Both the position numbers and the translations under genes were made by a program. The notes beneath the pieces were generated by a model. It was not told where the DNA came from. It searched no databases and saw nothing but the letters and a program-made list of their open reading frames with translations. A stretch of 64,000 nt of DNA from Isoperla grammatica (lineage: Eukaryota; Arthropoda; Insecta; Plecoptera; Perlodidae): contig OX246747.1 in NCBI GenBank assembly GCA_945910005.1, positions 32,430,489-32,494,488 of the forward strand, written 5' to 3'. Position 1 is the first letter of the stretch; each line of letters opens with the position of its first letter. Of this stretch, positions 27,501-63,069 are shown in pieces.

Positions 27501-30500
27501 TGTTGTATTCAGATAGTTTTTCATCACGCCAACATTAAAACATGTTTCCCCGGCTAACTGTTGATGCAAGGCCAGCATAAGCATGTTTCATGTATAGAGT
27601 AAGAATGTCCAATGGAGAAACTATAGTTTTTATTTCCTTAACTCTTTAACAGGAGACGCTACGAGTCGTTAAAGACGTGCTCAAATACACTCTGTTTTTT
27701 AGAATTATATTCTTTACGGCTATATTGTTTACTCAGGCGATCTTAAAATTAGTTCATAAGGTAGATCTGTACATTGTCTACTTTGAAAAAAATCATCGCT
27801 TTGCTACGTTTGTTGTGAACGACGTTAGGCGTCGCCGAAATTTCAAAGATTTTCTTGTCAAGTACCACTTTCGGTACCGATTGTGGGTGAACGGTGGTAC
27901 CTAGTAAGTCGTAGTGTCGAACTTAAGGTCAGTAAGAATCCCTGGTGACGTAGTATGAGCGTCGGTAGCGTCGGTTTGTACAGGTCGTGGTGAGGCGACA
28001 CCAACTTCAGGTAACCAAAATAGTTGATTTTATGAGGTTTTTATTTTTTTACTGGTAAACGGTTTGAGATAGAATTTTTTGGTTGCCAATTTCTTCCTAT
28101 TCATTGCTCTCTTGATATGTTTCGTATTTTTAAAAAAATCAAAAAAATCAAAAATTTCAATATTCTCCGATTGTGGTCTTCTGAGACAAAATTTGAAATT
28201 TTGGGCGCCTGTATCTCTGTAAGTATGACCCCCAGCATAGTTTTCGTTTTCAGAATGTCTAGATAATTAACGCAAAAAAAATAAAAAAAATACAGAAACA
28301 AATTTGGACCCCCCGTATGGTAGCTACGAGCGCTAGAAAAAAAAATTTCCCCTTAGTAAACCCTTCTCAACTTTGCTCGTCTGAATATGGAAGAAAAAAA
28401 GTCTGCCAGTTACGGGGATCGAACCCCGGACCGCGAAAACACTAGTCGACGCCGCTACCGAGTACGCCACACCACTCGATGGAAGTTGGGTCGCTTAGAC
28501 TGGTATAGATAACACACGGCTCTCAATGTATGCATGTTACCAAATATATATGGATTTACGAACAGAGGGTCTCATTGGATTTAAAAAATATCCAAGAATA
28601 CGATCCGATGACAAAAACTCACGCGAATTGAGTTATAAACGACATAAATGTGTGATTATGGTGGAAAAAAAAGAATTGGAGCTAATGGGTTCTGAACCCC
28701 AGAACTCAAGAATTCGAAGCGACGGCGTTACTGACTACGCTATGCCTCACGATGAAAATTCGTTGCTTAGACTGGAATATAACACACTGGTCTCAATGTA
28801 TGGCATAGCTTGTTGTATTCAGATAGTTTTTCATCACGCCAACATTAAAACATGTTTCCCCGGCTAACTGTTGATGCAAGGCAAGCATAAGCATGTTTCA
28901 TGTATAGAGTAAGAATGTCCAATGGAGAAAGTCTAGTTTTTATTTCCTTAACTCTTTAACAGGAGACGCTACGAGTCGTTAAAGACGTGCTCAAATACAC
29001 TCTGTTTTTTAGAATTATATTCTTTACGGCTATATTGTTTACTTAGGCGATCTTAAAGTTAGTTCATGAGGTAGATCTGTACATTGTCTACTTTGAAAAA
29101 AATCATCGCTTTGCTACGTTTGTTGTGAACGACGTTAGGCGTCGCCGAAATTTAAAAGATTTTCTTGTCAAGTACCACTTTCGGTACCGATTGTAGGTGA
29201 ACGGTGGTACCTAGTAAGTCGTAGTGTCGAACTGAAGGTCAATAAGAATCCCTGGTGACGTGGTATGAGCGTCGGTAGCGTCGGTTTGTACAGGTCGTGG
29301 TGAGGCGACGCCAACTTCAGGTAACCAAAATAGTTGATTTTTTTAGGTTTTTATTTTTTTACTGGTAAACAGTTTGAGATAGAATTTTTTAGTTGCCAAT
29401 TCCTTCCTATTCATTGCTCTCTTGATATGTTTCGTATTTTTAAAAAAATCAAAAAAATCAAAAATTTCAATACTCTCCGATTGTGGTCTTCTGAGACAAA
29501 ATTTGAAATTTTGGGCGCCTGTATCTCTGTAAGTATGACCCCCAGCATAGTTTTCGTTTTCAGAATGTCTAGATAATTAACGCAAAAAAAATAAAAAAAA
29601 TACAGAAACAAATTTGGACCCCCCGTATGGTAGCTACGAGCGCTAGAAAAAAAAATTTCCCATTAGTTAACCCTTCTCAACTTTGCTCGTCTGAATATGG
29701 AAGAAAAAAAGTCTGCCAGTTACGGGGATCGAACCCCGGACCGCGAAAACACTAGTCGACGCCGCTACCGCGTACGCCACACCACTCGATGAGAGTTGGG
29801 TCGCTTAGACTGGTATAGATACCACACGGCTCTCAATGTATGCATGTTACCAAATATATATGGATTTACGAACAGAGGGTCTCATTGGTTTTAAAAAATA
29901 TCCAAGAATACGATCCGATGACAAAAACTCACGCGAATTGAGTTATAAACGACATAAATGTGTGATTATGGTAGAAAAAAAAGAATTGGAGCTAATGGGT
30001 TCTGAACCCCAGACCTCAAGTCTTCGAAGCGACGGCGTTACTGACTACGCTATGCCTCACGATGAAAATTCGTTGCTTAGACTGGAATATAACACACTGG
30101 TCTCAATGTATGGCATAGCTTGTTGTATTCAGATAGTTTTTCATCACGCCAACATTAAAACATGTTTCCCCGGCTAACTGTTGATGCAAGGCAAGCATAA
30201 GCATGTTTCATGTATAGAGTAAGAATGTCCAATGGAGAAAGTCTAGTTTTTATTTCCTTAACTCTTTAACAGGAGACGCTACGAGTCGTTAAAGACGTGC
30301 TCAAATACACTCTGTTTTTTAGAATTATATTCTTTACGGCTATATTGTTTACTTAGGCGATCTTACAGTTAGTTCATGAGGTAGATCTGTACATTGTCTA
30401 CTTTGAAAAAAATCATCGCTTTGCTACGTTTGTTAAGAACGACGTTAGGCGTCGCCGAAATTTAAAAGATTTTCTTGTCAAGTACCACTTTCGGTACCGA

Positions 30501-33500
30501 TTGTGGGTGAACGGTGGTACCTAGTAAGTCGTAGTGTCGAACTTAAGGTCAGTAACAATCCCTGGTGACGTGGTATGAACGTCGGTAGCGTCGGTTTGTA
30601 CAGGTCGTGGTGAGGCGACGCCAACTTCAGGTAACCAAAATAGTTGATTTTTTGAGGTTTTTATTTTTTTACTGGTAAACGGTTTGAGATAGAATTTTTT
30701 GGTTGCCAATTTCTTCCTATTCATTGCTCTCTTGATATGTTTCGTATTTTAAAAAAAATCAAAAAAATCAAAAATTTCAATATTCTCCGATTGTGGTCTT
30801 CTGAGACAAAATTTGAAATTTTGGGCGCCTGTATCTCTGTAAATATGACCCCCAGCATAGTTTTCGTTTTCAGAATGTCTAGATTATTAACGCAAAAAAA
30901 ATAAAAAAAATACAGAAACAAATTTGGACCTCCCGTATGGTAGCTACGAGCGCTAGAAAAAAAAATTTCCCCTTAGAACACCCTTCTCAACTTTGCTCGT
31001 CTGAATATGGAAGAAAAAAAGTCTGCCATTTACGGGGATCGATCCCCGGACCGCGAAAACACTAGTCGACGCCGCTACCGCGTACGCCACACCACTCGAT
31101 GGAAGATGGGTCGCTTAGACTGGTATAGATAACACACGGCTCTCAATGTATGCATGTTACCAAATATATATGGATTTAGGAACAGAGGGTCTCATTGGAT
31201 TTAAAAAATATCCAAGAATACGATCCGATGACAAAAACTCACGCGAATTGAGTTATAAACGACATAAATGTGTGATTATGGTGGAAAAAAAAGAATTGGA
31301 GCTAATGGGTTCTGAACCCCAGACCTCAAGAATTCGAAGCGACGGCGTTACTGACTACGCTATGCCTCACGATGAAAATTCGTTGCTTAGACTGGAATAT
31401 AACACACTGGTCTCAATGTATGGCATAGCTTGTTGTATTCAGATAGTTTTTCATCACGCCAACATTAAAACATGTTTCCCCGGCTAACTGTTGATGCAAG
31501 GCCAGCATAAGCATGTTTCATGTATAGAGTAAGAATGTCCAATGGAGAAACTATAGTTTTTATTTCCTTAACTCTTTAACAGGAGACGCTACGAGTCGTT
31601 AAAGACGTGCTCAAATACACTCTGTTTTTTAGAATTATATTCTTTACGGCTATATTGTTTACTCAGGCGATCTTAAAATTAGTTCATAAGGTAGATCTGT
31701 ACATTGTCTACTTTGAAAAAAATCATCGCTTTGCTACGTTTGTTGTGAACGACGTTAGGCGTCGCCGAAATTTCAAAGATTTTCTTGTCAAGTACCACTT
31801 TCGGTACCGATTGTGGGTGAACGGTGGTACCTAGTAAGTCGTAGTGTCGAACTTAAGGTCAGTAAGAATCCCTGGTGACGTAGTATGAGCGTCGGTAGCG
31901 TCGGTTTGTACAGGTCGTGGTGAGGCGACACCAACTTCAGGTAACCAAAATAGTTGATTTTATGAGGTTTTTATTTTTTTACTGGTAAACGGTTTGAGAT
32001 AGAATTTTTTGGTTGCCAATTTCTTCCTATTCATTGCTCTCTTGATATGTTTCGTATTTTTAAAAAAATCAAAAAAATCAAAAATTTCAATATTCTCCGA
32101 TTGTGGTCTTCTGAGACAAAATTTGAAATTTTGGGCGCCTGTATCTCTGTAAGTATGACCCCCAGCATAGTTTTCGTTTTCAGAATGTCTAGATAATTAA
32201 CGCAAAAAAAATAAAAAAAATACAGAAACAAATTTGGACCCCCCGTATGGTAGCTACGAGCGCTAGAAAAAAAAATTTCCCCTTAGTAAACCCTTCTCAA
32301 CTTTGCTCGTCTGAATATGGAAGAAAAAAAGTCTGCCAGTTACGGGGATCGAACCCCGGACCGCGAAAACACTAGTCGACGCCGCTACCGAGTACGCCAC
32401 ACCACTCGATGGAAGTTGGGTCGCTTAGACTGGTATAGATAACACACGGCTCTCAATGTATGCATGTTACCAAATATATATGGATTTACGAACAGAGGGT
32501 CTCATTGGATTTAAAAAATATCCAAGAATACGATCCGATGACAAAAACTCACGCGAATTGAGTTATAAACGACATAAATGTGTGATTATGGTGGAAAAAA
32601 AAGAATTGGAGCTAATGGGTTCTGAACCCCAGAACTCAAGAATTCGAAGCGACGGCGTTACTGACTACGCTATGCCTCACGATGAAAATTCGTTGCTTAG
32701 ACTGGAATATAACACACTGGTCTCAATGTATGGCATAGCTTGTTGTATTCAGATAGTTTTTCATCACGCCAACATTAAAACATGTTTCCCCGGCTAACTG
32801 TTGATGCAAGGCCAGCATAAGCATGTTTCATGTATAGAGTAAGAATGTCCAATGGAGAAACTATAGTTTTTATTTCCTTAACTCTTTAACAGGAGACGCT
32901 ACGAGTCGTTAAAGACGTGCTCAAATACACTCTGTTTTTTAGAATTATATTCTTTACGGCTATATTGTTTACTCAGGCGATCTTAAAATTAGTTCATAAG
33001 GTAGATCTGTACATTGTCTACTTTGAAAAAAATCATCGCTTTGCTACGTTTGTTGTGAACGACGTTAGGCGTCGCCGAAATTTCAAAGATTTTCTTGTCA
33101 AGTACCACTTTCGGTACCGATTGTGGGTGAACGGTGGTACCTAGTAAGTCGTAGTGTCGAACTTAAGGTCAGTAAGAATCCCTGGTGACGTAGTATGAGC
33201 GTCGGTAGCGTCGGTTTGTACAGGTCGTGGTGAGGCGACACCAACTTCAGGTAACCAAAATAGTTGATTTTATGAGGTTTTTATTTTTTTACTGGTAAAC
33301 GGTTTGAGATAGAATTTTTTGGTTGCCAATTTCTTCCTATTCATTGCTCTCTTGATATGTTTCGTATTTTTAAAAAAATCAAAAAAATCAAAAATTTCAA
33401 TATTCTCCGATTGTGGTCTTCTGAGACAAAATTTGAAATTTTGGGCGCCTGTATCTCTGTAAGTATGACCCCCAGCATAGTTTTCGTTTTCAGAATGTCT

Positions 33501-36500
33501 AGATAATTAACGCAAAAAAAATAAAAAAAATACAGAAACAAATTTGGACCCCCCGTATGGTAGCTACGAGCGCTAGAAAAAAAAATTTCCCCTTAGTAAA
33601 CCCTTCTCAACTTTGCTCGTCTGAATATGGAAGAAAAAAAGTCTGCCAGTTACGGGGATCGAACCCCGGACCGCGAAAACACTAGTCGACGCCGCTACCG
33701 CGTACGCCACACCACTCGATGAGAGTTGGGTCGCTTAGACTGGTATAGATACCACACGGCTCTCAATGTATGCATGTTACCAAATATATATGGATTTACG
33801 AACAGAGGGTCTCATTGGTTTTAAAAAATATCCAAGAATACGATCCGATGACAAAAACTCACGCGAATTGAGTTATAAACGACATAAATGTGTGATTATG
33901 GTAGAAAAAAAAGAATTGGAGCTAATGGGTTCTGAACCCCAGACCTCAAGTCTTCGAAGCGACGGCGTTACTGACTACGCTATGCCTCACGATGAAAATT
34001 CGTTGCTTAGACTGGAATATAACACACTGGTCTCAATGTATGGCATAGCTTGTTGTATTCAGATAGTTTTTCATCACGCCAACATTAAAACATGTTTCCC
34101 CGGCTAACTGTTGATGCAAGGCAAGCATAAGCATGTTTCATGTATAGAGTAAGAATGTCCAATGGAGAAAGTCTAGTTTTTATTTCCTTAACTCTTTAAC
34201 AGGAGACGCTACGAGTCGTTAAAGACGTGCTCAAATACACTCTGTTTTTTAGAATTATATTCTTTACGGCTATATTGTTTACTTAGGCGATCTTACAGTT
34301 AGTTCATGAGGTAGATCTGTACATTGTCTACTTTGAAAAAAATCATCGCTTTGCTGCGTTTGTTAAGAACGACGTTAGGCGTCGCCGAAATTTAAAAGAT
34401 TTTCTTGTCAAGTACCACTTTCGGTACCGATTGTGGGTGAACGGTGGTACCTAGTAAGTCGTAGTGTCGAACTTAAGGTCAGTAACAATCCCTGGTGACG
34501 TGGTATGAACGTCGGTAGCGTCGGTTTGTACAGGTCGTGGTGAGGCGACGCCAACTTCAGGTAACCAAAATAGTTGATTTTTTGAGGTTTTTATTTTTTT
34601 ACTGGTAAACGGTTTGAGATAGAATTTTTTGGTTGCCAATTTCTTCCTATTCATTGCTCTCTTGATATGTTTCGTATTTTAAAAAAAATCAAAAAAATCA
34701 AAAATTTCAATATTCTCCGATTGTGGTCTTCTGAGACAAAATTTGAAATTTTGGGCGCCTGTATCTCTGTAAATATGACCCCCAGCATAGTTTTCGTTTT
34801 CAGAATGTCTAGATTATTAACGCAAAAAAAATAAAAAAAATACAGAAACAAATTTGGACCTCCCGTATGGTAGCTACGAGCGCTAGAAAAAAAAATTTCC
34901 CCTTAGAACACCCTTCTCAACTTTGCTCGTCTGAATATGGAAGAAAAAAAGTCTGCCATTTACGGGGATCGATCCCCGGACCGCGAAAACACTAGTCGAC
35001 GCCGCTACCGCGTACGCCACACCACTCGATGGAAGATGGGTCGCTTAGACTGGTATAGATAACACACGGCTCTCAATGTATGCATGTTACCAAATATATA
35101 TGGATTTAGGAACAGAGGGTCTCATTGGATTTAAAAAATATCCAAGAATACGATCCGATGACAAAAACTCACGCGAATTGAGTTATAAACGACATAAATG
35201 TGTGATTATGGTGGAAAAAAAAGAATTGGAGCTAATGGGTTCTGAACCCCAGACCTCAAGAATTCGAAGCGACGGCGTTACTGACTACGCTATGCCTCAC
35301 GATGAAAATTCGTTGCTTAGACTGGAATATAACACACTGGTCTCAATGTATGGCATAGCTTGTTGTATTCAGATAGTTTTTCATCACGCCAACATTAAAA
35401 CATGTTTCCCCGGCTAACTGTTGATGCAAGGCCAGCATAAGCATGTTTCATGTATAGAGTAAGAATGTCCAATGGAGAAACTATAGTTTTTATTTCCTTA
35501 ACTCTTTAACAGGAGACGCTACGAGTCGTTAAAGACGTGCTCAAATACACTCTGTTTTTTAGAATTATATTCTTTACGGCTATATTGTTTACTCAGGCGA
35601 TCTTAAAATTAGTTCATAAGGTAGATCTGTACATTGTCTACTTTGAAAAAAATCATCGCTTTGCTACGTTTGTTGTGAACGACGTTAGGCGTCGCCGAAA
35701 TTTCAAAGATTTTCTTGTCAAGTACCACTTTCGGTACCGATTGTGGGTGAACGGTGGTACCTAGTAAGTCGTAGTGTCGAACTTAAGGTCAGTAAGAATC
35801 CCTGGTGACGTAGTATGAGCGTCGGTAGCGTCGGTTTGTACAGGTCGTGGTGAGGCGACACCAACTTCAGGTAACCAAAATAGTTGATTTTATGAGGTTT
35901 TTATTTTTTTACTGGTAAACGGTTTGAGATAGAATTTTTTGGTTGCCAATTTCTTCCTATTCATTGCTCTCTTGATATGTTTCGTATTTTTAAAAAAATC
36001 AAAAAAATCAAAAATTTCAATATTCTCCGATTGTGGTCTTCTGAGACAAAATTTGAAATTTTGGGCGCCTGTATCTCTGTAAGTATGACCCCCAGCATAG
36101 TTTTCGTTTTCAGAATGTCTAGATAATTAACGCAAAAAAAATAAAAAAAATACAGAAACAAATTTGGACCCCCCGTATGGTAGCTACGAGCGCTAGAAAA
36201 AAAAATTTCCCCTTAGTAAACCCTTCTCAACTTTGCTCGTCTGAATATGGAAGAAAAAAAGTCTGCCAGTTACGGGGATCGAACCCCGGACCGCGAAAAC
36301 ACTAGTCGACGCCGCTACCGAGTACGCCACACCACTCGATGGAAGTTGGGTCGCTTAGACTGGTATAGATAACACACGGCTCTCAATGTATGCATGTTAC
36401 CAAATATATATGGATTTACGAACAGAGGGTCTCATTGGATTTAAAAAATATCCAAGAATACGATCCGATGACAAAAACTCACGCGAATTGAGTTATAAAC

Positions 36501-39347
36501 GACATAAATGTGTGATTATGGTGGAAAAAAAAGAATTGGAGCTAATGGGTTCTGAACCCCAGAACTCAAGAATTCGAAGCGACGGCGTTACTGACTACGC
36601 TATGCCTCACGATGAAAATTCGTTGCTTAGACTGGAATATAACACACTGGTCTCAATGTATGGCATAGCTTGTTGTATTCAGATAGTTTTTCATCACGCC
36701 AACATTAAAACATGTTTCCCCGGCTAACTGTTGATGCAAGGCCAGCATAAGCATGTTTCATGTATAGAGTAAGAATGTCCAATGGAGAAACTATAGTTTT
36801 TATTTCCTTAACTCTTTAACAGGAGACGCTACGAGTCGTTAAAGACGTGCTCAAATACACTCTGTTTTTTAGAATTATATTCTTTACGGCTATATTGTTT
36901 ACTCAGGCGATCTTAAAATTAGTTCATAAGGTAGATCTGTACATTGTCTACTTTGAAAAAAATCATCGCTTTGCTACGTTTGTTGTGAACGACGTTAGGC
37001 GTCGCCGAAATTTCAAAGATTTTCTTGTCAAGTACCACTTTCGGTACCGATTGTGGGTGAACGGTGGTACCTAGTAAGTCGTAGTGTCGAACTTAAGGTC
37101 AGTAAGAATCCCTGGTGACGTAGTATGAGCGTCGGTAGCGTCGGTTTGTACAGGTCGTGGTGAGGCGACACCAACTTCAGGTAACCAAAATAGTTGATTT
37201 TATGAGGTTTTTATTTTTTTACTGGTAAACGGTTTGAGATAGAATTTTTTGGTTGCCAATTTCTTCCTATTCATTGCTCTCTTGATATGTTTCGTATTTT
37301 TAAAAAAATCAAAAAAATCAAAAATTTCAATATTCTCCGATTGTGGTCTTCTGAGACAAAATTTGAAATTTTGGGCGCCTGTATCTCTGTAAGTATGACC
37401 CCCAGCATAGTTTTCGTTTTCAGAATGTCTAGATAATTAACGCAAAAAAAATAAAAAAAATACAGAAACAAATTTGGACCCCCCGTATGGTAGCTACGAG
37501 CGCTAGAAAAAAAAATTTCCCCTTAGTAAACCCTTCTCAACTTTGCTCGTCTGAATATGGAAGAAAAAAAGTCTGCCAGTTACGGGGATCGAACCCCGGA
37601 CCGCGAAAACACTAGTCGACGCCGCTACCGAGTACGCCACACCACTCGATGGAAGTTGGGTCGCTTAGACTGGTATAGATAACACACGGCTCTCAATGTA
37701 TGCATGTTACCAAATATATATGGATTTACGAACAGAGGGTCTCATTGGATTTAAAAAATATCCAAGAATACGATCCGATGACAAAAACTCACGCGAATTG
37801 AGTTATAAACGACATAAATGTGTGATTATGGTGGAAAAAAAAGAATTGGAGCTAATGGGTTCTGAACCCCAGAACTCAAGAATTCGAAGCGACGGCGTTA
37901 CTGACTACGCTATGCCTCACGATGAAAATTCGTTGCTTAGACTGGAATATAACACACTGGTCTCAATGTATGGCATAGCTTGTTGTATTCAGATAGTTTT
38001 TCATCACGCCAACATTAAAACATGTTTCCCCGGCTAACTGTTGATGCAAGGCAAGCATAAGCATGTTTCATGTATAGAGTAAGAATGTCCAATGGAGAAA
38101 GTCTAGTTTTTATTTCCTTAACTCTTTAACAGGAGACGCTACGAGTCGTTAAAGACGTGCTCAAATACACTCTGTTTTTTAGAATTATATTCTTTACGGC
38201 TATATTGTTTACTTAGGCGATCTTAAAGTTAGTTCATGAGGTAGATCTGTACATTGTCTACTTTGAAAAAAATCATCGCTTTGCTACGTTTGTTGTGAAC
38301 GACGTTAGGCGTCGCCGAAATTTAAAAGATTTTCTTGTCAAGTACCACTTTCGGTACCGATTGTAGGTGAACGGTGGTACCTAGTAAGTCGTAGTGTCGA
38401 ACTGAAGGTCAATAAGAATCCCTGGTGACGTGGTATGAGCGTCGGTAGCGTCGGTTTGTACAGGTCGTGGTGAGGCGACGCCAACTTCAGGTAACCAAAA
38501 TAGTTGATTTTTTTAGGTTTTTATTTTTTTACTGGTAAACAGTTTGAGATAGAATTTTTTAGTTGCCAATTCCTTCCTATTCATTGCTCTCTTGATATGT
38601 TTCGTATTTTTAAAAAAATCAAAAAAATCAAAAATTTCAATACTCTCCGATTGTGGTCTTCTGAGACAAAATTTGAAATTTTGGGCGCCTGTATCTCTGT
38701 AAGTATGACCCCCAGCATAGTTTTCGTTTTCAGAATGTCTAGATAATTAACGCAAAAAAAATAAAAAAAATACAGAAACAAATTTGGACCCCCCGTATGG
38801 TAGCTACGAGCGCTAGAAAAAAAAATTTCCCATTAGTTAACCCTTCTCAACTTTGCTCGTCTGAATATGGAAGAAAAAAAGTCTGCCAGTTACGGGGATC
38901 GAACCCCGGACCGCGAAAACACTAGTCGACGCCGCTACCGCGTACGCCACACCACTCGATGAGAGTTGGGTCGCTTAGACTGGTATAGATACCACACGGC
39001 TCTCAATGTATGCATGTTACCAAATATATATGGATTTACGAACAGAGGGTCTCATTGGTTTTAAAAAATATCCAAGAATACGATCCGATGACAAAAACTC
39101 ACGCGAATTGAGTTATAAACGACATAAATGTGTGATTATGGTAGAAAAAAAAGAATTGGAGCTAATGGGTTCTGAACCCCAGACCTCAAGTCTTCGAAGC
39201 GACGGCGTTACTGACTACGCTATGCCTCACGATGAAAATTCGTTGCTTAGACTGGAATATAACACACTGGTCTCAATGTATGGCATAGCTTGTTGTATTC
39301 AGATAGTTTTTCATCACGCCAACATTAAAACATGTTTCCCCGGCTAA
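24596..39347. repeat. Higher-order repeat block within the satellite
   Basis: Shared diagnostic variants sort the 1310-bp units into types. A has TCTTCG in tRNA-like segment 2; B has ATTTAGGAAC after the marker; C has AGAACTCAAGAATTCG. C splits into C1 and C2 by downstream variants. By marker position the order is A 24596, B 25906, C1 27216, C2 28526, A 29836, B 31146, C1 32456, A 33766, B 35076, C1 36386, C2 37696, A 39006. This is a 4-mer (5240 bp) with one 3-mer derivative (3930 bp). Confidence 0.88.
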
Positions 39348-40600
39348 CTGTTGATGCAAGGCAAGCATAAGCATGTTTCATGTATAGAGTAAGAATGTCC
39401 AATGGAGAAAGTCTAGTTTTTATTTCCTTAACTCTTTAACAGGAGACGCTACGAGTCGTTAAAGACGTGCTCAAATACACTCTGTTTTTTAGAATTATAT
39501 TCTTTACGGCTATATTGTTTACTTAGGCGATCTTACAGTTAGTTCATGAGGTAGATCTGTACATTGTCTACTTTGAAAAAAATCATCGCTTTGCTACGTT
39601 TGTTAAGAACGACGTTAGGCGTCGCCGAAATTTCAAAGATTTTCTTGTCAAGTACCACTTTCGGTACCGATTGTGGGTGAACAGTGGTACCTAGTAAGTC
39701 GTTGTGTCGAACTTAAGGTCAGTAAGAATCCCTGGTGACGTGGTATGAGCGTCGGTAGCGTCGGTTTGTACAGGTCGTGGTGAGGCGACGCCAACTTCAG
39801 GTAACCAAAATAGTTGATTTTTTTAGGTTTTTATTTTTTTACTGGTAAACGGTTTGAGATAGAATTTTTTGGTTGCCAATTCCTTTCTATTCATTGCTCT
39901 CTTGATATGTTTCGTATTTTTAAAAAAATCAAAAAAATCAAAAATTTCAATATTCTCCGATTGTGGTCTTCTGAGACAAAATTTGAAATTTTGGGCGCCT
40001 GTATCTCTGTAAGTATGACCTCCAGCATAGTTTTCGTTTTCAGAATGTCTAGATAATTAACGCAAAAAAAATAAAAAAAATACAGAAACAAATTTGGACC
40101 CCCCGTATGGTAGCTACGAGCGCTAGAAAAAAAAATTTCCCATTAGTAAACCCTTCTCAACTTTGCTCGTCTGAATATGGAAGAAAAAAAGTCTGCCAGT
40201 TACGGGGATCGAACCCCGGACCGCGAAAACACTAGTCGACGCCGCTACCGCGTACGCCACACCACTCGATAAGAGTTGGGTCGCTTAGACTGGTATAGAT
40301 AACACACGGCCTCAATGTATGCATGTTACCAAATATATATGGATTTACGAACAGAGGGTCTCATTGGATTTAAAAAATATCCAAGAATACGATCCGATGA
40401 CAAAAACTCACGCGAATTGAGTTATAAACGACATAAATGTGTGATTATGGTGAAAAAAAAAAATTGGAGCTAATGGGTTCCGAACCCCAGACCTCAAGTA
40501 TTTGTAGCGACGGCGTTACTGACTACGCTAAGCCTCACTATCAAAATATGGTCGCTTACACTGGTACTTAACACACTGGTCTCAATTGTATGCATTTATG

Positions 40601-47091: not shown

Positions 47092-47139
47092 TCACATTCC
47101 TGCCGCGCCCGCATCCTCGTCACCCTCCTCTAGCGTCAC
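47092..47139 (-). CDS. dnc: cAMP phosphodiesterase PDE4 (dunce), last coding exon
   Basis: After the acceptor ggttccag (minus strand, 47140-47147), 15 codons VTLEEGDEDAGAAGM are followed by TGA at 47094-47092. The exon continues RIRFQ from the upstream exon to make RIRFQVTLEE, the conserved end of insect dunce proteins, followed by the usual short acidic tail. At 48 nt it is easily missed by ORF calling. Frame (phase 0), splice site and family sequence all agree. The tail is shorter than in Drosophila dunce. Confidence 0.9.
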   Translation of the reverse strand: MTLEEGDEDAGAAGM

Positions 47140-47619: not shown

Positions 47620-48425
47620 GAAAGCTCAATCCACCCACTAAAGAAACATACAACACACCTGCACAACTCCAATGAAAATAAATTAGAGAAGAAAACTGAC
47701 GGCTCTTGTATGCATCCCTGCACAACTCCCACAAAAATAAAACACAGAAGAAAACCGACGGACCTAGAACGTCTCCCTGAACAACTCCCATGAAAATAAA
47801 TTAGAGAAGAAAACTGACGGACCTAGAACGCATCCCTGCACAACTCCCATGAAAATAAATTAGAGAAGAAAACTGACGGACCTAGAACGTCTCCCTGCAC
47901 AACTCCCATGAAAATAAATCAGAGAAGAAAACTGACGGACCTAGAACGTCTCCCTGAACAACTCCCATGAAAATAAATTATAGAGAAGAAAACTGACGGA
48001 CCTAGAATGCATCCCTGCACAACTCCCATGAAAAAATAAATCAGAGAAGAAAACCGACGGACCTAGAACGTATCCCTGAACAACTCCCATAAAAAATAGA
48101 TTTGAGAAGAAAACCGACGGACCTAGAACGTCTCCCTGAACAACTCCCATGAAAATAAATCAGAGAAGAAAACTGACGGACCTAGAACGTATCCCTGCAC
48201 AACTCCCATGAAAATAGAGAAGAAAACTGACGGACCTAAAACGCATCCCTGGACCACTCCCATTAAAATAAATCAGAGAAGAAAACTGACGGACCTAGAA
48301 CGCATCCCTGAACAACTCCCATGACAAAATGACGAACCTAGAACGTCTCCATGCACAACACCTATGAAAATAACAGAGAAGAAAAGTGACGGTCCCAGAA
48401 CATATCCCTGAACAACACCCCACTC
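47620..48425. repeat. Minisatellite, about 59-bp unit, in a PDE4 intron
   Basis: About 13 tandem units centred on GACGGACCTAGAACG, CTCCCTGAACAACTCCCATG and an AAATAAATYAGAGAAGAAAA tract fill most of the last intron. They run right up to the splice donor at 48431. Unit length varies from about 50 to 62 bp, with single substitutions. The minus-strand open frames here are repeat artefacts. Confidence 0.92.
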
Positions 48426-48431
48426 GCTCAC

Positions 48432-48680
48432 CTGGAAGCGTATCCTGTCCTGTCCCCCTCCGCCCGGCTCCTCCTCTTCTTCCTCCTCCTCTTCCTCCTC
48501 TTCGTCCTCTTCAGTCTCCTGTTCCCTCAGTTCGCTGCCCGCGGGCGGACTGGGCGGTATCATCGACGAGTAATAGTCACGGTTCTCTTCGAGCGTGTCG
48601 AGTATGTCCTGGGCGTCGGGGTGGACGAGGTCCGCCCACGTCTCCCACAGGGGGTGGACGATGTAGTCGATGAAGCCGAC
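48432..48680 (-). CDS. dnc: cAMP phosphodiesterase PDE4 (dunce), penultimate coding exon
   Basis: Acceptor cccgcag lies before 48680 and donor gtgagc after 48432; 83 codons in phase 0. The sequence [20 protein letters not shown] and then [20 protein letters not shown] is the last helices of the PDE4 catalytic domain, including the hydrophobic residues that close the pocket. An IPPSPP linker and a glutamate-rich tract encoded by GAG/GAA repeats (about 48468-48517) follow, then a glycine run and RIRFQ. The poly-Glu tract is where family members vary most. A partial duplicate of the 5' end of this exon lies upstream at 48918-48938. Confidence 0.96.
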
Positions 48681-49185
48681 CTGCGGGGCAAACACACACG
48701 TTCAAGGTCATTACGCGTCCTCAATGCACCTAGGCGATATAACGTCGGGGAGGAAAGGCGCAAATAGGAATAGGGTTTAATGGGAGGAAAAGACCATGGG
48801 AGGGGGGCTTGTATTGTCGCCTCTTACGAGAGGCAGAGTTAATCTAGGCCACTTTTACCCCGAGCCTACGTTCAATTGTAACAAGGTGGTGTTAAGGAAA
48901 AATGGGATGGGGTGCATGATGTAGTCGATGAAGCCGACCTGCGGGGCAAACACACACACGTTCAAGGTCGTTTACTTAACGACGCGTCCTCAATACAGCT
49001 GGAGGCGATATAACGTCGGAAAGGGACAAACTGGAAGACATTTAAAAGGGTTTAATGGGAGGAAAAGACCAAAAGGATTGGGGAGGGGGGGGGGGGGGGG
49101 GGGGGCAAATTTCGTCGCCTCTTACGACAGGCAGAGTTAATTTGGGCCACTTCTACCCCGATCGAGCCTACGTTCAGTTGTGGTG
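48661..49185. repeat. Tandem duplication of about 255 bp spanning an exon's acceptor
   Basis: Sequence 48661-48905, holding the first seven codons of the PDE4 exon, its acceptor and upstream intron, is repeated at about 48910-49185. The copies share the cacacacgttcaaggtc block, GGCGATATAACGTCGG, GGGTTTAATGGGAGGAAAAG, and a CGCCTCTTACGA-SAGGCAGAG block that resembles LINE 3'-end remnants. The second copy is diverged and carries a 21-base G run (49085-49105). Confidence 0.9.
48918..48938 (-). pseudogene. dnc: Decoy partial PDE4 exon with intact acceptor
   Basis: The duplicated segment keeps the acceptor tttgccccgcag and the codons VGFIDYI, then diverges (MHP instead of VHP) into non-coding sequence. 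In the transcript this acceptor comes before the authentic one at 48680. Splicing to it would lose the catalytic C-terminus unless skipped. It is a fossil or a cryptic site; nothing here shows that it is used. Confidence 0.8.
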
Positions 49186-49564: not shown

Positions 49565-49747
49565 CTGTGTTTTCTCGATGGTCGCGTTCTGTCGGTCGCA
49601 CATCGGACTAATGTCTAGATTCTGTTCCTTCTCCTTATCGCCCTGTTGGAAGAACTCCTCCATGAGTAGTTCCACCCACTGCCGATAGAGCGCCAGCGGT
49701 TTGGTCGGATTACTCAGGTCGGCGCAGTGTACGAGATTCTCCAAGAC
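49565..49747 (-). CDS. dnc: cAMP phosphodiesterase PDE4 (dunce), catalytic exon with metal Asp and glutamine switch
   Basis: Acceptor ttctag, donor gtgagc, 61 codons in phase 0. [20 protein letters not shown] contains the metal-coordinating aspartate of HCADLSNP. The following segment has [20 protein letters not shown], where the second Q of FFQQGD matches the invariant glutamine that orients the purine ring of c[18 protein letters not shown] ends the exon. All key residues for a working class I phosphodiesterase are present. The acceptor abuts a 300-bp (ATT)n microsatellite. Confidence 0.97.
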
Positions 49748-49756
49748 CTAGAATAA

Positions 49757-50066
<310 letters not shown>

Positions 50067-50067
<1 letters not shown>

Positions 50068-50390
50068 AACAACAGAACGCACATATAGATACAGATTCGT
50101 CTTTTTAGCATTAATTTTCTCTAAATTTAGCATTTTTAAGCGTCTATTAATTTTATCAAAACCTTGAATATGAGGCCACTTCTAATGGAGAATCGTCCGC
50201 AGATATTTTAAACGTATGAATGCAGTTCTAAACTTAATCTATTGATTGATATTTGGGCTTAACGTTCTATATTTTTTTAAATTAGCTTGACATGGCTCAA
50301 CAGGAATAAGTATACATTTTTGTTTGTAAACAAAGCATTTTGTTGCGTTTTCAAAAATACCAACACCTGCCGCATTACAACGCTTCACAC
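50067..50390 (-). other. PDE4 intron, no feature seen
   Basis: AT-rich sequence between the (ATT)n tract and the exon-derived array. No repeat or gene is recognised. Confidence 0.5.
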
Positions 50391-50394
50391 AACC

Positions 50395-50530
50395 TCGCCG
50401 CCCCGCACCATCTACCTGCAGTATTGTACAACGCCTCCCGCCCATCTCACACTACCTCGCCGCCCCGCACCATCTACCTGCAGTATTGTACAACGCCTCC
50501 CGCCTATCTCAAACTACCTCGCCGCCCCGC
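50395..50530. repeat. 62-bp direct repeat at the edge of the exon array
   Basis: Two 62-bp units (CGCCGCCCCGCACCATC, CTGCAGTATTGTACAACGCC) share the CGCCGCCCCGCAC block of the exon array but lack the exon portion. They look like decayed or rearranged array units at its 3' margin. Confidence 0.8.
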
Positions 50531-50532
50531 AC

Positions 50533-53500
50533 TACCCACCTGTATCCGGTCGGTGTAGTTGTCTAGCAGTAACACGCCCGAGCCGGCCACCTTCTTAGTC
50601 TCGACCATTGTCTTGAGGTCGGCGAGCAGGCTCATGTCCGTCACCCTCCCCTCCCCCTCGTACACTACCTCGCCGCCCCACACTACCCACCTGTATCCGG
50701 TCGGTGTAGTTGTCTAGCAGTAACACGCCCGAGCCGGCCACCTTCTTAGTCTCGACCATTGTCTTGAGGTCGGCGAGCAGGCTCATGTCCGTCACCCTCC
50801 CCTCCCCCTCGTACACTACCTCGCCGCCCCACACTACCCACCTGTATCCGGTCGGTGTAGTTGTCTAGCAGTAACACGCCCGAGCCGGCCACCTTCTTCG
50901 TCTCGACCATTGTCTTGAGGTCGGCGAGCAGGCTCATGTCCGTCACCCTCCCCCTCCCCTCGTACACTACCTCGCCGCCCCACACTACCCACCTGTATCC
51001 GGTCCGTGTAGTTGTCTAGCAGTAACACGCCCGAGCCGGCCACCTTCTTCGTCTCGACCATTGTCTTGAGGTCGGCGAGCAGGCTCATGTCCGTCACCCT
51101 CCCCCTCCCCTCGTACACTACCTCGCCGCCCCACACTACCCACCTGTATCCGGTCGGTGTAGTTGTCTAGCAGTAACACGCCCGAGCCGGCCACCTTCTT
51201 AGTCTCGACCATTGTCTTGAGGTCGGTGAGCAGGCTCATGTGTCCGTCACCCTCCCCCCCTCGTACACTACCTCGCCGCCCCGCACTACCCACCTGTATC
51301 CGGTCCGTGTAGTTGTCTAGCAGCAACACGCCCGAGCCGGCCACCTTCTTAGTCTCGACCATTGTCTTGAGGTCGGCTAGCAGGCTCATGTGTCCGTCAC
51401 CCTCCCCTCCCTCCCCTCGTACACTACCTCGCCGCCCCGCACTACCCACCTGTATCCGGTCGGTGTAGTTGTCTAGCAGTAACACGCCCGAGCCGGCCAC
51501 CTTCTTAGTCTCGACCATTGTCTTGAGGTCGGCGAGCAGGCTCATGTCCGTCACCCTCCCCTCCCCTCGTACACTACCTCGCCGTCCCGCAACTCCCACC
51601 TGCTTTATCCCTCTTACCACGCCGTCCCGCACCTCCCACCTGCTTTATCCCTCTTACCTCGCCGTCCCGCACCTCCCACCTGCTCTATCCCTCTTACCTC
51701 ACCCCCCCGCACTACCCACCTGTATCCGGTCGGTATAGTTGTCTAGCAGTAACACGCCCGAGCCGGCCACCTTCTTAGTCTCGACCATTGTCTTGAGGTC
51801 GGCGAGCAGGCTCATGTCCGTCACCCTCCCCTCCCTCCCCTCGTACACTACCTCGCCGCCCCGCACTACCCACCTGTATCCGGTCCGTGTAGTTGTCTAG
51901 CAGTAACACGCCCGAGCCGGCCACCTTCTTAGTCTCGACCATTGTCTTGAGGTCGGCGAGCAGGCTCGTGTGTCCGTCACCCTCCCCTCCCCTCCCCTCG
52001 TACACTACCTCGCCGCCCCACACTACCCACCTGTATCCGGTCGGTGTAGTTGTCTAGCAGTAACACGCCCGAGCCGGCCACCTTCTTAGTCTCGACCATT
52101 GTCTTGAGGTCGGCGAGCAGGCTCATGTCCGTCACCCTCCCCTCCCCTCCCCTCGTACACTACCTCGCCCCCCCCCGCACTACCCACCTGTATCCGGTCG
52201 GTGTAGTTGTCTAGCAGTAACACGCCCGAGCCGGCCACCTTCTTAGTCTCGACCATTGTCTTGAGGTCGGCGAGCAGGCTCATGTGTCCGTCACCCTCCC
52301 CCCCCTCCCCTCGTACACTACCTCGCCGCCCCGCACTACCCACCTGTATCCGGTCGGTGTAGTTGTCTAGCAGTAGCACGCCCGAGCTGGCCACCTTCTT
52401 AGTCTCGACCATTGTCTTGAGGTCGGCGAGCAGGCTCGTGTCCGTCACCCTCCCCTCCCCTCGTATACTACCTCGCCGCCCCGCACTACCCACCTGTATC
52501 CGGTCGGTGTAGTTGTCTAGCAGTAACACGCCCGAGCCGGCCACCTTCTTAGTCTCGACCATTGTCTTGAGGTCGGCGAGCAGGCTCATGTCCGTCACCC
52601 TCCCCTCCCCTCCCCTCGTACTCTACCACGCCGCCCCGCACTACCCACCTGTATCCGGTCGGTGTAGTTGTCTAGCAGTAACACGCCCGAGCCGGCCACC
52701 TTCTTAGTCTCGACCATTGTCTTGAGGTCGGCGAGCAGGCTCATGTCCGTCACCCTCCCCTCCCTCCCCTCGTACTCTACCACGCCGCCCCGCACTACCC
52801 ACCTGTATCCGGTCGGTGTAGTTGTCTAGCAGTAACACGCCCGAGCCGGCCACCTTCTTAGTCTCGACCATTGTCTTGAGGTCGGCGAGCAGGCTCATGT
52901 CCGTCACCCTCCCCTCCCCTCGTACACTACCTCGCCGCCCCCCCCGCACTACCCACCTGTATCCGGTCCGTGTAGTTGTCTAGCAGTAACACGCCCGAGC
53001 CGGCCACCTTCTTAGTCTCGACCATTGTCTTGAGGTCGGCGAGCAGGCTCATGTCCGTCACCCTCCCCTCCCTCCCCTCGTACTCTACCACGCCGCCCCG
53101 CACTACCCACCTGTATCCGGTCGGTGTAGTTGTCTAGCAGTAACACGCCCGAGCCGGCCACCTTCTTAGTCTCGACCATTGTCTTGAGGTCGGCGAGCAG
53201 GCTCATGTCCGTCACCCTCCCCTCCCCTCGTACACTACCTCGCCGCCCCACACTACCCACCTGTATCCGGTCGGTGTAGTTGTCTAGCAGTAACACGCCC
53301 GAGCCGGCCACCTTCTTAGTCTCGACCATTGTCTTGAGGTCGGCGAGCAGGCTCATGTCCGTCACCCTCCCCTCCCCTAGTACACTACCTCGCCGCCCCG
53401 CACTACCCACCTGTATCCGGTCGGTGTAGTTGTCTAGCAGTAACACGCCCGAGCCGGCCACCTTCTTAGTCTCGACCATTGTCTTGAGGTCGGCGAGCAG

Positions 53501-54938
53501 GCTCATGTCCGTCACCCTCCCCTCCCCTCGTACACTACCTCGCCCCCCCCCCCGCACTACCCACCTGTATCCGGTCGGTGTAGTTGTCTAGCAGTAACAC
53601 GCCCGAGCCGGCCACCTTCTTAGTCTCGACCATTGTCTTGAGGTCGGTGAGCAGGCTCATGTGTCCGTCACCCTCCCCCCCTCGTACACTACCTCGCCGC
53701 CCCGCACTACCCACCTGTATCCGGTCGGTGTAGTTGTCTAGCAGTAACACGCCCGAGCCGGCCACCTTCTTAGTCTCGACCATTGTCTTGAGGTCGGCGA
53801 GCAGGCTCATGTGTCCGTCACCCTCCCCTCCCTCCCCTCGTACACTACCTCGCCGCCCCGCACTACCCACCTGTATCCGGTCGGTGTAGTTGTCTAGCAG
53901 TAACACGCCCGAGCCGGCCACCTTCTTAGTCTCGACCATTGTCTTGAGGTCGGCGAGCAGGCTCATGTCCGTCACCCTCCCCTCCCCTCGTACACTACCT
54001 CACCGCCCCGCACTACCCACCTGTATCCGGTCGGTGTAGTTGTCTAGCAGTAACACGCCCGAGCCGGCCACCTTCTTAGTCTCGACCATTGTCTTGAGGT
54101 CGGCGAGCAGGCTCATGTCCGTCACCCTCCCCTCCCCTCGTACACTACCTCGCCGCCCCGCACTACCCACCTGTATCCGGTCGGTGTAGTTGTCTAGCAG
54201 TAACACGCCCGAGCCGGCCACCTTCTTAGTCTCGACCATTGTCTTGAGGTCGGCTAGCAGGCTCATGTCACTCACCCTCCCCTCCCCTCCCCTCTACCTC
54301 GCCGCCCCGCACTACCCACCTGTATCCGGTCCGTGTAGTTGTCTAGCAGTAACACGCCCGAGCCGGCCACCTTCTTAGTCTCGACCATTGTCTTGAGGTC
54401 GGCGAGCAGGCTCATGTCCGTCACCCTCCCCTCCCTCCCCTCGTACACTACCTCGCCCCCCCCCCGCACTACCCACCTGTATCCGGTCGGTGTAGTTGTC
54501 TAGCAGTAACACGCCCGAGCCGGCCACCTTCTTAGTCTCGACCATTGTCTTGAGGTCGGCGAGCAGGCTCATGTCCCTCCCCTCCCCTCCCCTCCCCTCG
54601 TACACTACCTCGCCGCCCCGCACTACCCACCTGTATCCGGTCGGTGAAGTTGTCTAGCAGTAACACGCCCGAGCCGGCCACCTTCTTAGTCTCGACCATT
54701 GTCTTGAGGTCGGCGAGCAGGCTCATGTCCGTCACCCTCCCCTCCCCTCGTACACTACCTCGCCGCCCCCCGCACTACCCACCTGTATCCGGTCGGTGTA
54801 GTTGTCTAGCAGTAACACGCCCGAGCCGGCCACCTTCTTAGTCTCGACCATTGTCTTGAGGTCGGCGAGCAGGCTCATGTGTCCGTCACCCTCCCCTCCC
54901 CCGCCCTCCCCACTACCTCGCCGCCCCGCACTACCCAC
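50533..54938 (-). repeat. dnc: Tandem array of 28 partial PDE4 exon copies with splice donors
   Basis: Twenty-eight units of about 150-157 bp each contain the exon segment [20 protein letters not shown] plus [12 protein letters not shown], then the donor CAG/GTGGGTAG and about 45 bases of G-rich intron. The first plus-strand base after each donor (TGTATCC) lies at 50541, 50692, 50843, 50994, 51145, 51295, 51451, 51721, 51875, 52032, 52189, 52345, 52495, 52650, 52804, 52959, 53112, 53262, 53412, 53566, 53716, 53872, 54022, 54172, 54321, 54479, 54632 and 54784. The authentic exon's is at 54940. Each copy starts at GACGGACATG and lacks the exon's 5' part. The sequence before it is purine-rich, so no splice acceptor is visible. 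Between 51580 and 51710 three 39-bp mini-units lacking exon sequence lengthen one interval to 270 bp. Confidence 0.95.
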
Positions 54939-55216
54939 CTGTATCCGGTCGGTGTAGTTGTCTAGCAGTAACACGCCCGAGCCGGCCACCTTCTTAGTCT
55001 CGACCATTGTCTTGAGGTCGGCGAGCAGGCTCATGTGTTTGGACATGTCCGTCGAGAGGACCATGTCGATCACCATCTTGCGCAACGTCTGACGCTGTTT
55101 CCGGCCTAGGTTCGAGAAGATGTCGCAGCCGTCGTTCTGCAATAGTTTGAAGGCCACGGCCAGGTGGTGGTTTTCGAGCACGGACTCGTCGTTGTACATC
55201 AACGCCAGCTCCGAGC
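54939..55216 (-). CDS. dnc: cAMP phosphodiesterase PDE4 (dunce), catalytic exon and source of the array
   Basis: Acceptor tttccag lies before 55216; two bases complete a serine codon split by the intron (phase 1), and 92 codons run to the donor GTGGGT at 54938. The sequence [20 protein letters not shown] leads through [20 protein letters not shown] to [17 protein letters not shown] and DNYTDRIQ, the middle helices of the PDE4 catalytic core that line the substrate pocket. It matches insect dunce almost exactly. The final third is the segment amplified downstream. Relative to this exon, the shorter array copies have lost the four codons SKHM in frame, and a few carry a related junction reading GHMSLL. 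Confidence 0.97.
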
Positions 55217-56030: not shown

Positions 56031-56295
56031 TGGAGTTGATGAGGAACTGGTTGGTGAGTCCCGGATGGTCGACGTCGTGAATGGTCGCCGCAAACAGCGC
56101 GGCCATGATCTCGAGGGGCGTGAACACAGACTCTAGTGCGGGCGTGTTCAACAGCACGTGCGTGCTCTGGGTCACGTCGGCCGCGTGCATGCTGTTGTGG
56201 AACGGGTTGTCCTTGACGTAGTGGTCCTCCAACGTCATCATGAACGTGATGAACGTCTTCGGCGGTATCATGAACGTCTTCAACAGGTCTCGACT
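56031..56295 (-). CDS. dnc: cAMP phosphodiesterase PDE4 (dunce), metal-binding HD exon
   Basis: Acceptor tttccag, donor gtgagt, 265 nt from phase 0 to phase 1. The sequence [15 protein letters not shown] leads to [20 protein letters not shown] and [19 protein letters not shown], then [28 protein letters not shown] supplies the general-acid and first metal histidines, and [10 protein letters not shown] is the class I PDE signature. All catalytic residues are intact. The text is closer to insect dunce ([18 protein letters not shown]) than to vertebrate PDE4. Confidence 0.97.
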
Positions 56296-58439: not shown

Positions 58440-59660
58440 CTCGCAGTGGCGTTCTCGCGTGGCCCCAACGAAAGTATTCGCATACCGATCTCAGGTCATT
58501 GTCTACTGACTGGCCCCTTTCAACCGCGCCAATTGAAAGAAAATCAACAGATATACTAGTTCCAACGAAAGCATTCGGATACCGATCTCAGGTAATTGTC
58601 TACTGGCCCCTTTCAAAGTCACAACGAAGGTATTCGCCTACCGATCTCATTGTCTACTGGCCGCTTTCAACCGCGTCAATTGAAAGAACATCAACAGATA
58701 TACTAGTCCCAACGAATGTATTCGCCTACCGATCTCAGGTCATTGTCTACTGACTGGCCCCTTTCAACCGCGCCAATTGAAAGAAAATCAACAGATATAC
58801 TAGTCCCAACGAATGTATTCGCATACCGATCTCAGGTCATTGTCTACTGGCCCCTTTCAACCGCGCCAATTGAAAGAAAATCAACATATGTACTAGTCTC
58901 AACGAAAGTATTCGCATACCGATCTCAGGTCATTGTCTACTGCCCCTTTCAACCGCGCCAATTGAAAGAAAATCAACAGATATACTAGTCCCAACGAAAG
59001 TATTCGCATACCGATCTCAGGTCATTGTCTACTGGCCCCTTTCAACCGTGCCAATTGAAAGAAAATCAACAGATATACTAGTCACAACGAAAGTATTCGC
59101 ATACCGATCTCAGGTCATTGTCTACGGCCCTTTTCAACCGCGCCAATTGAAAGAAAATCAACAGATATACAAGTCCCAACGAAAGTATTCGCATACCGGT
59201 CTCAGGTCATTGTCTACTGGCCTCTTTCAACCGCGCCAATTGAAAGAAAATCAACATATGTACTAGTCTCAACGAAAGTATTCGCATACCGATCTCAGGT
59301 CGTTGTCTACTGGCCCCTTTCAACCGCGCCAATTGAAAGAATATCAACAAATATACAAGTCCCAACGAAAGTATTCGTATACCGATCTCAGGTCATTGTC
59401 TACTGGCCCCTTTCAACCGCGCCAATTGAAAGAAAATCAACATATGTACTAGTCTCAACGAAAGTATTTGCATACCGATCTCAGGTCATTGTCTACTGGC
59501 CCCTTTCAACCGCGCCAATTGAAAGAAAATTATCAGATATACTAGTCCCAACGAAAGTATTCGCATACCGGTCTCAGGTCATTGATACTGCCCCCTTTCA
59601 ACCGCGCCAATTGAAAGAAAATCATCAGATAAAAGTTATCCCAACGAAAGTATTCGGATG
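58440..59660. repeat. Minisatellite, about 93-bp unit, about 13 copies
   Basis: Units share CCCAACGAAAGTATTCGCAT, a CCGATCTCAGGTCATTGTCT block, CCCTTTCAACCGCGCCAATTG and AAAGAAAATCAACAGATATA. Two early units are shortened (near 58600-58690). Some units alternate CATATGTACTAGTCTC with CAGATATACTAGTCCC variants. The open frames here are artefacts of the period. Confidence 0.93.
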
Positions 59661-62677: not shown

Positions 62678-62962
62678 CCTTTGACTCTCTGAACTCTCTG
62701 AACTCTCTGAACTCTCTGAACTCTCTAAACTCTCTAAACTCTCTAAACTCTCTAAACTCTCCGAACTCTCCGAACTCTCCGAACTCTCTGAACTCTCTGA
62801 ACTCTCTGAACTTTCTGAACTCTCTGGACTCTCTGAACTCTCTGAACTCTCTGAACTCTCTGGTCTCTCCGAACCCTCTGACCTCTCTGGTCTCTCCGAA
62901 CCCTCTGAACTCTCTGGACTCTCTAAACTCTCTAAACTCTCTGGACTCTCTGAACTCTCTGC
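62678..62962. repeat. 9-bp minisatellite next to a PDE4 splice donor
   Basis: About 31 tandem CTCTGAACT nonamers with CTCTAAACT, CTCCGAACT, CTCTGGACT and CTCTGGTCT variants. The array ends eight bases before the donor at 62970. On the sense strand it is AGTTCAGAG, purine-rich. The SES/ESLE-rich minus-strand frame is an artefact. Confidence 0.95.
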
Positions 62963-62970
62963 CAACTCAC

Positions 62971-63069
62971 CTGGAAGGCCACGAAGGCTACGGCCGTCAA
63001 CGGTCGAACACTGGACAGGTCTCGTATTCTAAATATGTCGATCCCCCATTTGTCAACCTCGAGCAAGAC
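62971..63069 (-). CDS. dnc: cAMP phosphodiesterase PDE4 (dunce), first exon of the gene seen here
   Basis: Acceptor ccttcag, donor gtgagt, 33 codons in phase 0 at both ends. The sequence VLLEVDKWGIDIFRIRDLSS and then VRPLTAVAFVAFQ matches the start of the PDE4 catalytic domain (KWGIDIF, RPLT, FQ). FQ joins directly to SRDLLKTF of the next exon. It is too short for most ORF callers. The second half (RDLSS ... FVAFQ) is less conserved than the others. The UCR1/UCR2 and N-terminal exons lie beyond the window. Confidence 0.9.

Follow-up and report, generated by a model that had tools for sequence, protein, structure and literature searches.

The genome of the plecopteran insect Isoperla grammatica contains a gene of the PDE4 (dunce) type in which the 3′ part of one catalytic exon, together with its splice donor, is repeated in 28 tandem units through the adjoining intron. 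The gene lies in a window of 64,000 nucleotides (GenBank assembly GCA_945910005.1, contig OX246747.1, positions 32,430,489 to 32,494,488 of the forward strand), whose own numbering is used throughout. Judging from the DNA, we consider this array, with a probability of roughly 0.8, to be an exon-born minisatellite that is silent to splicing, of the kind reported in chicken genes under the name of exon stuttering (PMC12954441). A neutral minisatellite born from an exon was one of several options offered in the initial annotation of the window, and it is the best supported of them.

The repeated exon end and donor

The minus strand of the window carries at least six exons (E1 to E6, Table 1) of the PDE4 gene. 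When E2 to E5 were joined and compared with protein structures, the PDE4B and PDE4D chains matched with approximately 509 to 520 bits over nearly the whole query, and the PDE4B match (519.6 bits, query 2-287) was free of gaps, which indicates that the coding exons are intact and bears out the earlier identification of a PDE4 catalytic exon. The top match among the best 120 of 289 database proteins came from the stick insect Timema monikensis, with 95% identity and 95% query coverage. E3, the source of the array, is itself 94.7% identical to residues 81-174 of the T. monikensis PDE4. It follows the acceptor ...CACTGTTTCCAG/GCTCGGAG at 55217 (a slash marks the splice junction) and ends at the donor CAG/GTGGGTAG, the G of which is at 54938. 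The intron between E3 and E4 measures 5.2 kb, with the array at its start and E4 downstream.

Beyond the authentic donor we found 28 more, the 29th donor being located at 50539. The 17-mer CGGATACAG/GTGGGTAG is perfect at all 29 junctions, between 54947 and 50532, although its chance expectation is 0.02 and none of 100 shuffled sequences reached 29 copies; allowing up to two mismatches, we detected no further copy in the window. The exon part of a unit corresponds in each of the 28 cases to the last 98-100 nt of E3 (BLAST start 179-181, end 278; bit scores 164-181), as expected from the roughly 33 exon codons per unit first described. Neither the 5′ part of E3 (its first 178-180 nt) nor the E3 acceptor occurs in any unit. 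Outside a fixed block of 96 exon nucleotides, the units have 53-61 nt, mostly of G-rich intron head (27 units; unit 22 was excluded from this measure), and 7-9 of these nucleotides resemble E3 sequence farther upstream, which makes the earlier figure of about 45 intron bases a fair one. The count of 28 units was likewise correct, whereas the length range of 150-157 bp was not quite: 27 units measure 149-157 bp, and unit 22 extends to 270 bp. At the far end of the array, the last donor is followed by short units that have the intron head in common with the rest and are devoid of the exon part. The presence of the array in the PDE4 intron is thus confirmed.

Variation among the units and history of the array

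The 28 units represent 26 different sequences, the identical pairs being units 9 and 24 and units 27 and 28. Ten sites of the 96-nt exon block vary over the 29 copies, with 18 substitutions in all, and the block is constant in length, length changes being confined to the G-rich intron part. The junction between intron head and exon part, immediately before ATGAGCC, reads GACGGAC in 19 units and GACGGACAC in seven, while the remaining two of the 28 differ; in two units, ATGAGCC itself is replaced by ACGAGCC. The longer junction could have arisen by deletion of 10 nt between ACA repeats, and the shorter one by the loss of another 2 nt. Because the junction is common to 26 of the 28 units, a single founder copy appears to be the simplest reading. 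With unit 22 excluded, the mean edit distance was lowest between units 15 places apart (5.6 versus 7.5 overall), as expected if blocks of units had been copied. On the coding strand we counted 14 non-overlapping quadruplex-type motifs with loops of up to 7 nt and 15 with loops of up to 12 nt; on the non-coding strand, none was detected with loops of up to 12 nt.

We propose that a single local duplication would have placed the 3′ part of E3, its donor and the head of the intron into the intron, and that slippage, unequal exchange or conversion would then have raised the number of copies to 28 units. In this scheme, the normal exon of 278 nt would be delimited by its acceptor (55217) and by the first donor, all sequence from that donor to E4 being removed as one intron. 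The first donor is likely used by exon definition, the array leaving with the intron; it would be silent to splicing because the first donor defines the exon, and it would persist by being invisible to the splicing machinery. Since the authentic exon end would act as unit 0, exchange within the shared 96 nt would restore an intact exon and donor, and changes in array length would be tolerated for this reason. Duplications confined to the exon, by changing the enzyme, would be eliminated, and those that span its edge would survive; this would be why repeats derived from exons begin at splice sites.

Splicing outlook and alternative explanations

The 29 perfect donors could also be taken as a functional ladder, in which downstream donors tune PDE4 output either through a messenger RNA (mRNA) that uses donor 2 and gains 52 extra catalytic-domain codons, or through decoy mRNAs that carry a stop codon. 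Donor 2 does lie 156 nt farther on, in frame and stop-free when reading on from E3, and a human gene, IFI6, is described as having a minisatellite with downstream repeat donors in use (PMC4526556). However, the frame is open for just this one of the 28 extra donors; read-through to donors 3 to 29 takes in a stop in every case, and only 12 of the 28 unit lengths are multiples of three. Moreover, a young and homogenised array would also be expected to have perfect donors, and we regard a functional ladder as improbable. Read-through of the array into a tandem-repeat protein was ruled out by a stop in unit 2. Inflation of a short array during assembly of a repetitive region, which would make the copy number an artefact, seems very unlikely to us. 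The similarity at an offset of 15 units could stem from merged haplotypes, but the units comprise 26 distinct sequences, and only one of the 13 pairs at that offset is identical, the rest differing by 1-14 edits, or by 120 where unit 22 is involved. In addition, the same junction is repeated in proteins of other organisms, described below.

As every junction reads CAG/GT, a unit has GT at its start and CAG at its end, and units might thus serve as introns of approximately 150 nt; alternatively, the CAG/GT junctions or an inner TAG might act as ratchet points of recursive splicing or give rise to small cryptic exons. In fission yeast, tandem 24-nt repeats with proto-splice sites are described as having turned into introns (PMC3629103, PMC4974935). 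We checked the 396 AGs of the 28 units by a crude count of the pyrimidines among the 20 bases that precede the AG triplet. The unit-final CAG scored 8-10 of 20 in the 28 units, below the 11-15 of 20 at six real acceptors of the gene, and the normal E4 acceptor is present at 49748. Another AG inside the unit, a TAG at about position 127, reaches 11 of 20 pyrimidines and equals the real acceptors of E3 and E5. On balance, gain of introns or recursive splicing is the least likely of the alternatives. The initial annotation had stated that no copy has a pyrimidine tract or acceptor, which holds for the E3 acceptor and is too strict in view of this TAG and of an AAG at about position 78 with 13 of 20 pyrimidines; a strict absence of acceptors from all units was softened, given that these inner AGs overlap the weaker real acceptors by pyrimidine count.

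We also asked how the copies vary, in tests for all of which the copies are not independent of one another. Synonymous changes account for 12 of the 18 differences in the 96-nt exon block and for six of the 10 distinct exon changes, compared with an expectation of 24-29% (P 0.017-0.043). Variation was fourfold lower in the exon part than in the intron part (0.67% versus 2.6%, P 7e-7). With G-tracts excluded, variable sites numbered 10 of 96 in the exon and nine of 37 in the intron (P 0.05); when units 1, 3, 5 and 22 were left out as well, the figures were 10 of 96 and six of 37 (P 0.38). Selection for conserved copies was dropped as an explanation once G-tracts were excluded and variable sites counted.

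Several observations weigh against a splice-silent, stuttering origin of the array. All 29 donors are the same in sequence, and use of the first of them is what we infer. Cryptic splicing into the array may occur, since the inner TAG and AAG match the weaker acceptors of the gene. The copies show at most a marginal and weak synonymous excess, and upkeep of the donors by selection is not claimed. Finally, exon stuttering in chicken is tied to GC-rich dot chromosomes (PMC12954441), whereas the flanks of our array are AT-rich: among 15 flanking blocks of 1 kb (44-64 kb, array excluded), 14 range over 28-45% GC, and one reaches 51%. We treat location on a dot chromosome as an association, and not as a definition, of exon stuttering.

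The same exon end repeated in database proteins

Proteins in which the end of this exon is repeated were also found in the database, with queries that were all built from E3, so that their number refers to this exon alone. When the array peptide was the query (E up to 1e-5; best 120 of 824 proteins), three proteins with tandem exon ends, P0121, P0122 and P0123, came out on top, and a composite query (best 120 of 951 proteins) added P0241. Among the 287 proteins listed, only these four have at least two exon-end motifs or at least two frame-shifted motifs. Translation of a single 41-nt unit, consisting of GTGGGTTCCTACTT plus the exon end, in three successive frames accounts for 82 residues of P0122 with two mismatches and for 84 residues of P0123 with three. 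As the unit was derived from P0122, with the preceding 36-residue exon spelled to fit, it is properly tested by the final 48 residues of P0123 and by P0241, which agrees with the unit over 77 residues with 10 mismatches. P0121 has an in-frame version of 42 nt, with four successive exon ends.

The four proteins thus appear to represent a PDE4 exon end and donor repeated in tandem with a unit of 41-42 nt. They probably stem from other lineages, given that the P0123 exon begins with QVLATDMSKHM, where this insect has no intron. A search for viral contigs encoding P0122 gave nine pattern matches, none of which was a relative. It is conceivable, if doubtful, that exon stuttering in animals has started repeatedly from the PDE4 exon-donor junction, with a 150-bp unit here and one of 41-42 nt in at least one other lineage. 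If so, the exon end itself, and not a chromosome type specific to birds, would predispose to stuttering, which would then be a general, sequence-driven route of intron growth from exon edges.

Other repeats and features in the window

A second and smaller stutter occurs in the same gene, in the intron before E5 (Table 1). Here the copied part is on the acceptor side: the exon copy is 93.3% identical to the start of E5 (46.4 bits), and TTTGCCCCGCAG is present both at its decoy acceptor and at the real acceptor, which the decoy precedes by 258 bp. The duplication around this copy (48909-49148) retains 174 identical positions of 240 (E 1e-39). At 42.1 bits, the cut-off of the chicken study, we found 28 partial copies of E3 and one of E5, all 29 in the intron adjoining the source exon, while no partial copies of E1, E2, E4 or E6 were detected at that cut-off.

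Table 1. Positions of the array, the PDE4 exons and associated repeats in the window
Feature	Position	Strand	Description
Array	50540..54938	minus	28 tandem units, donor to donor: intron head plus about 33 exon codons
Unit 1 junction, intron head/exon part	54872..54887	minus	GACGGACACATGAGCC; the authentic exon has GACGGACATGTCCAAACACATGAGCC
Unit 22	51450..51719	minus	270 bp; nested repeats of about 40 bp, each starting CAG/GTGGGAG or similar
Array end	50385..50539	minus	final donor, followed by about two units of 62 bp, CTGCAG/GTAGATGGTGCGGGG...
E1	62971..63069	minus	PDE4 exon; diverged, 57-68% identity in matches to four insect-like proteins
E2	56032..56295	minus	PDE4 exon upstream of E3
E3	54939..55216	minus	authentic PDE4 catalytic exon, 278 nt; source of the array
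E4	49565..49747	minus	PDE4 exon; acceptor at 49748; Pfam PDEase_I 8.9e-22
E5	48432..48680	minus	PDE4 exon
E6	47092..47139	minus	last short PDE4 exon: VTLEEGDEDAGAAGM, then stop
Second stutter	48909..48938	minus	copy of E5 positions 1-30 together with the acceptor TTTGCCCCGCAG/GTCGGC and the tail of the intron; lies between E4 and E5
59-bp minisatellite	47658..48420	minus	begins 11 nt past the E5 donor
9-bp repeat	62684..62961	minus	CAGAGAGTT, about 31 copies; begins 9 nt past the E1 donor

Two further arrays begin close to donors of the gene. In the 59-bp minisatellite, the unit possibly includes a degraded E5 end (GGATACG-TTCTAGGT versus GGATACGCTTCCAGGT), but this is suggestive only: the similarity was equalled at nine of 3000 background places when 20 exon bases were compared and at 61 of 3000 with 12, and in a differently built test, two of 2000 shuffles and seven of 1287 pieces of the window scored as well. 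The 9-bp array was rejected as a derivative of the E1 donor, which was matched as well at 393 of 3000 background places with 12 exon bases and at 598 of 3000 with 20. A 93-bp minisatellite of 11 copies (58617-59656) lies in the intron between E1 and E2 and has no similarity above background to the donors of the gene. A PDE4 splice site is located within 20 bp of four of the seven arrays of at least 200 bp, as in five of 20,000 circular shifts, and within 15 bp of three of the seven (17 of 20,000 circular shifts), in a post hoc test on a hand-made list that includes the PDE4 array itself. With the 9-bp array not derived from a donor and the 59-bp array suggestive only, a general origin of the other arrays from donors was abandoned.

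E1 encodes VLLEVDKWGIDIFRIRDLSSVRPLTAVAFVAFQ, which we take to belong to the linker between UCR2 and the catalytic domain. This linker region is well conserved, in contrast to the identity of E1 to its matches (Table 1). A (TAT)n tract of about 100 copies (49765-50066) abuts the E4 acceptor at a distance of 17 nt. Elsewhere in the window, a tandem satellite that repeats every 1310 bp (12792-40358) contains a repeated open frame of 122 amino acids; self-identity at that shift exceeds 80% over 18185-20062 and 23476-40358, and similar frames are present from 12792 onward. One of these 122-residue frames had no match in Pfam. Scans of the window with Rfam, at the gathering threshold, and for tRNAs gave no match.

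Comparison with known systems

The initial annotation set the array apart from ordinary exon duplication and from mutually exclusive exons, and rightly so. Such duplications share with it the presence of exon sequence in tandem within one gene; the copies here, however, are no whole cassettes, as they consist of part of an exon and a donor and are devoid of the first 178-180 nt and the acceptor of E3. A closer precedent is human 6-16/IFI6, in which a minisatellite reportedly supplies multiple splice donors (a report of 1995), with a repeat unit that is presumably 12 bp and far shorter than the unit here. The two have in common a minisatellite within a gene whose repeat units contain donor sites (29 of 29 in our case). 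In IFI6, several downstream repeat donors are described as being in use (PMC4526556), while the downstream donors of the array here would be silent.

Tandem duplication of AGGT segments as a route of intron gain is represented by the model of Rogers, by ATP2A1 (Hellsten), by fission yeast and by the potato RdRp gene (PMC3629103, PMC4974935). The PDE4 segment also contains AG/GT when duplicated, but it spans an existing exon-intron border and apparently just lengthens an existing intron.

The most similar system is exon stuttering, reported in 2026 for chicken dot-chromosome genes, in which a lateral part of an exon and its donor or acceptor are copied through the adjacent intron (PMC12954441). 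That report covers 115 genes and 236 introns, 190 of the introns being on dot chromosomes, with exon parts of 20-187 bp that recur in 1-44 copies over 112-23,555 bp; the source lies at most one base from the exon border in more than 90% of cases, and length varies extensively between individuals. Copies were recognised there with a threshold of 42.1 bits and, for one intron, with the criterion that they lie within 20% of their consensus. Beyond birds, its authors mention only GC-rich genes of gerbils, as data not shown. The term exon stuttering was not found elsewhere in the literature that we searched. Neither our search on PDE4 and phosphodiesterases, which returned no PDE4 case of such an array, nor that on exon-derived repeats bearing splice sites, which returned no PDE4 or insect equivalent by title and start of abstract among the papers listed, revealed a counterpart. 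The earlier claim that no equivalent had been described consequently stands for PDE4 within that literature, and does not stand more widely: the same anatomy is present in chicken (PMC12954441), and IFI6 is an older precedent.

The array in Isoperla resembles the chicken cases in that an exon edge and its splice site are in tandem in the adjacent intron while the coding exon remains intact. Its 28 copies, exon part of 98-100 nt and span of about 4.5 kb fall inside the chicken ranges, and its mean pairwise edit distance of 7.5 per approximately 152 bp is within 20%, unit 22 with its nested repeats being outside. As in chicken, both donor-side copies (E3 179/181-278) and acceptor-side copies (E5 1-30) occur and more than one intron is affected, and the repeats are G-rich and quadruplex-prone and come from GC-rich exons (53-62% GC in E1 to E5). 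Unlike in chicken, the host is an insect, and the array is unusually regular, with every donor perfect. We conclude that it belongs to the kind described in birds and is new for PDE4 and for insects within the literature searched, what is new being its occurrence in an invertebrate and in the gene of a highly conserved enzyme, an acceptor-side stutter in the same gene and the four database proteins. Our findings suggest that neither dot chromosomes nor the history of vertebrate genomes is needed for stuttering. Twenty-nine identical donors in a row also offer a simple, countable system for how the spliceosome chooses the first among equals, and for the question of whether selection on coding exons spares just those duplications that span an edge.

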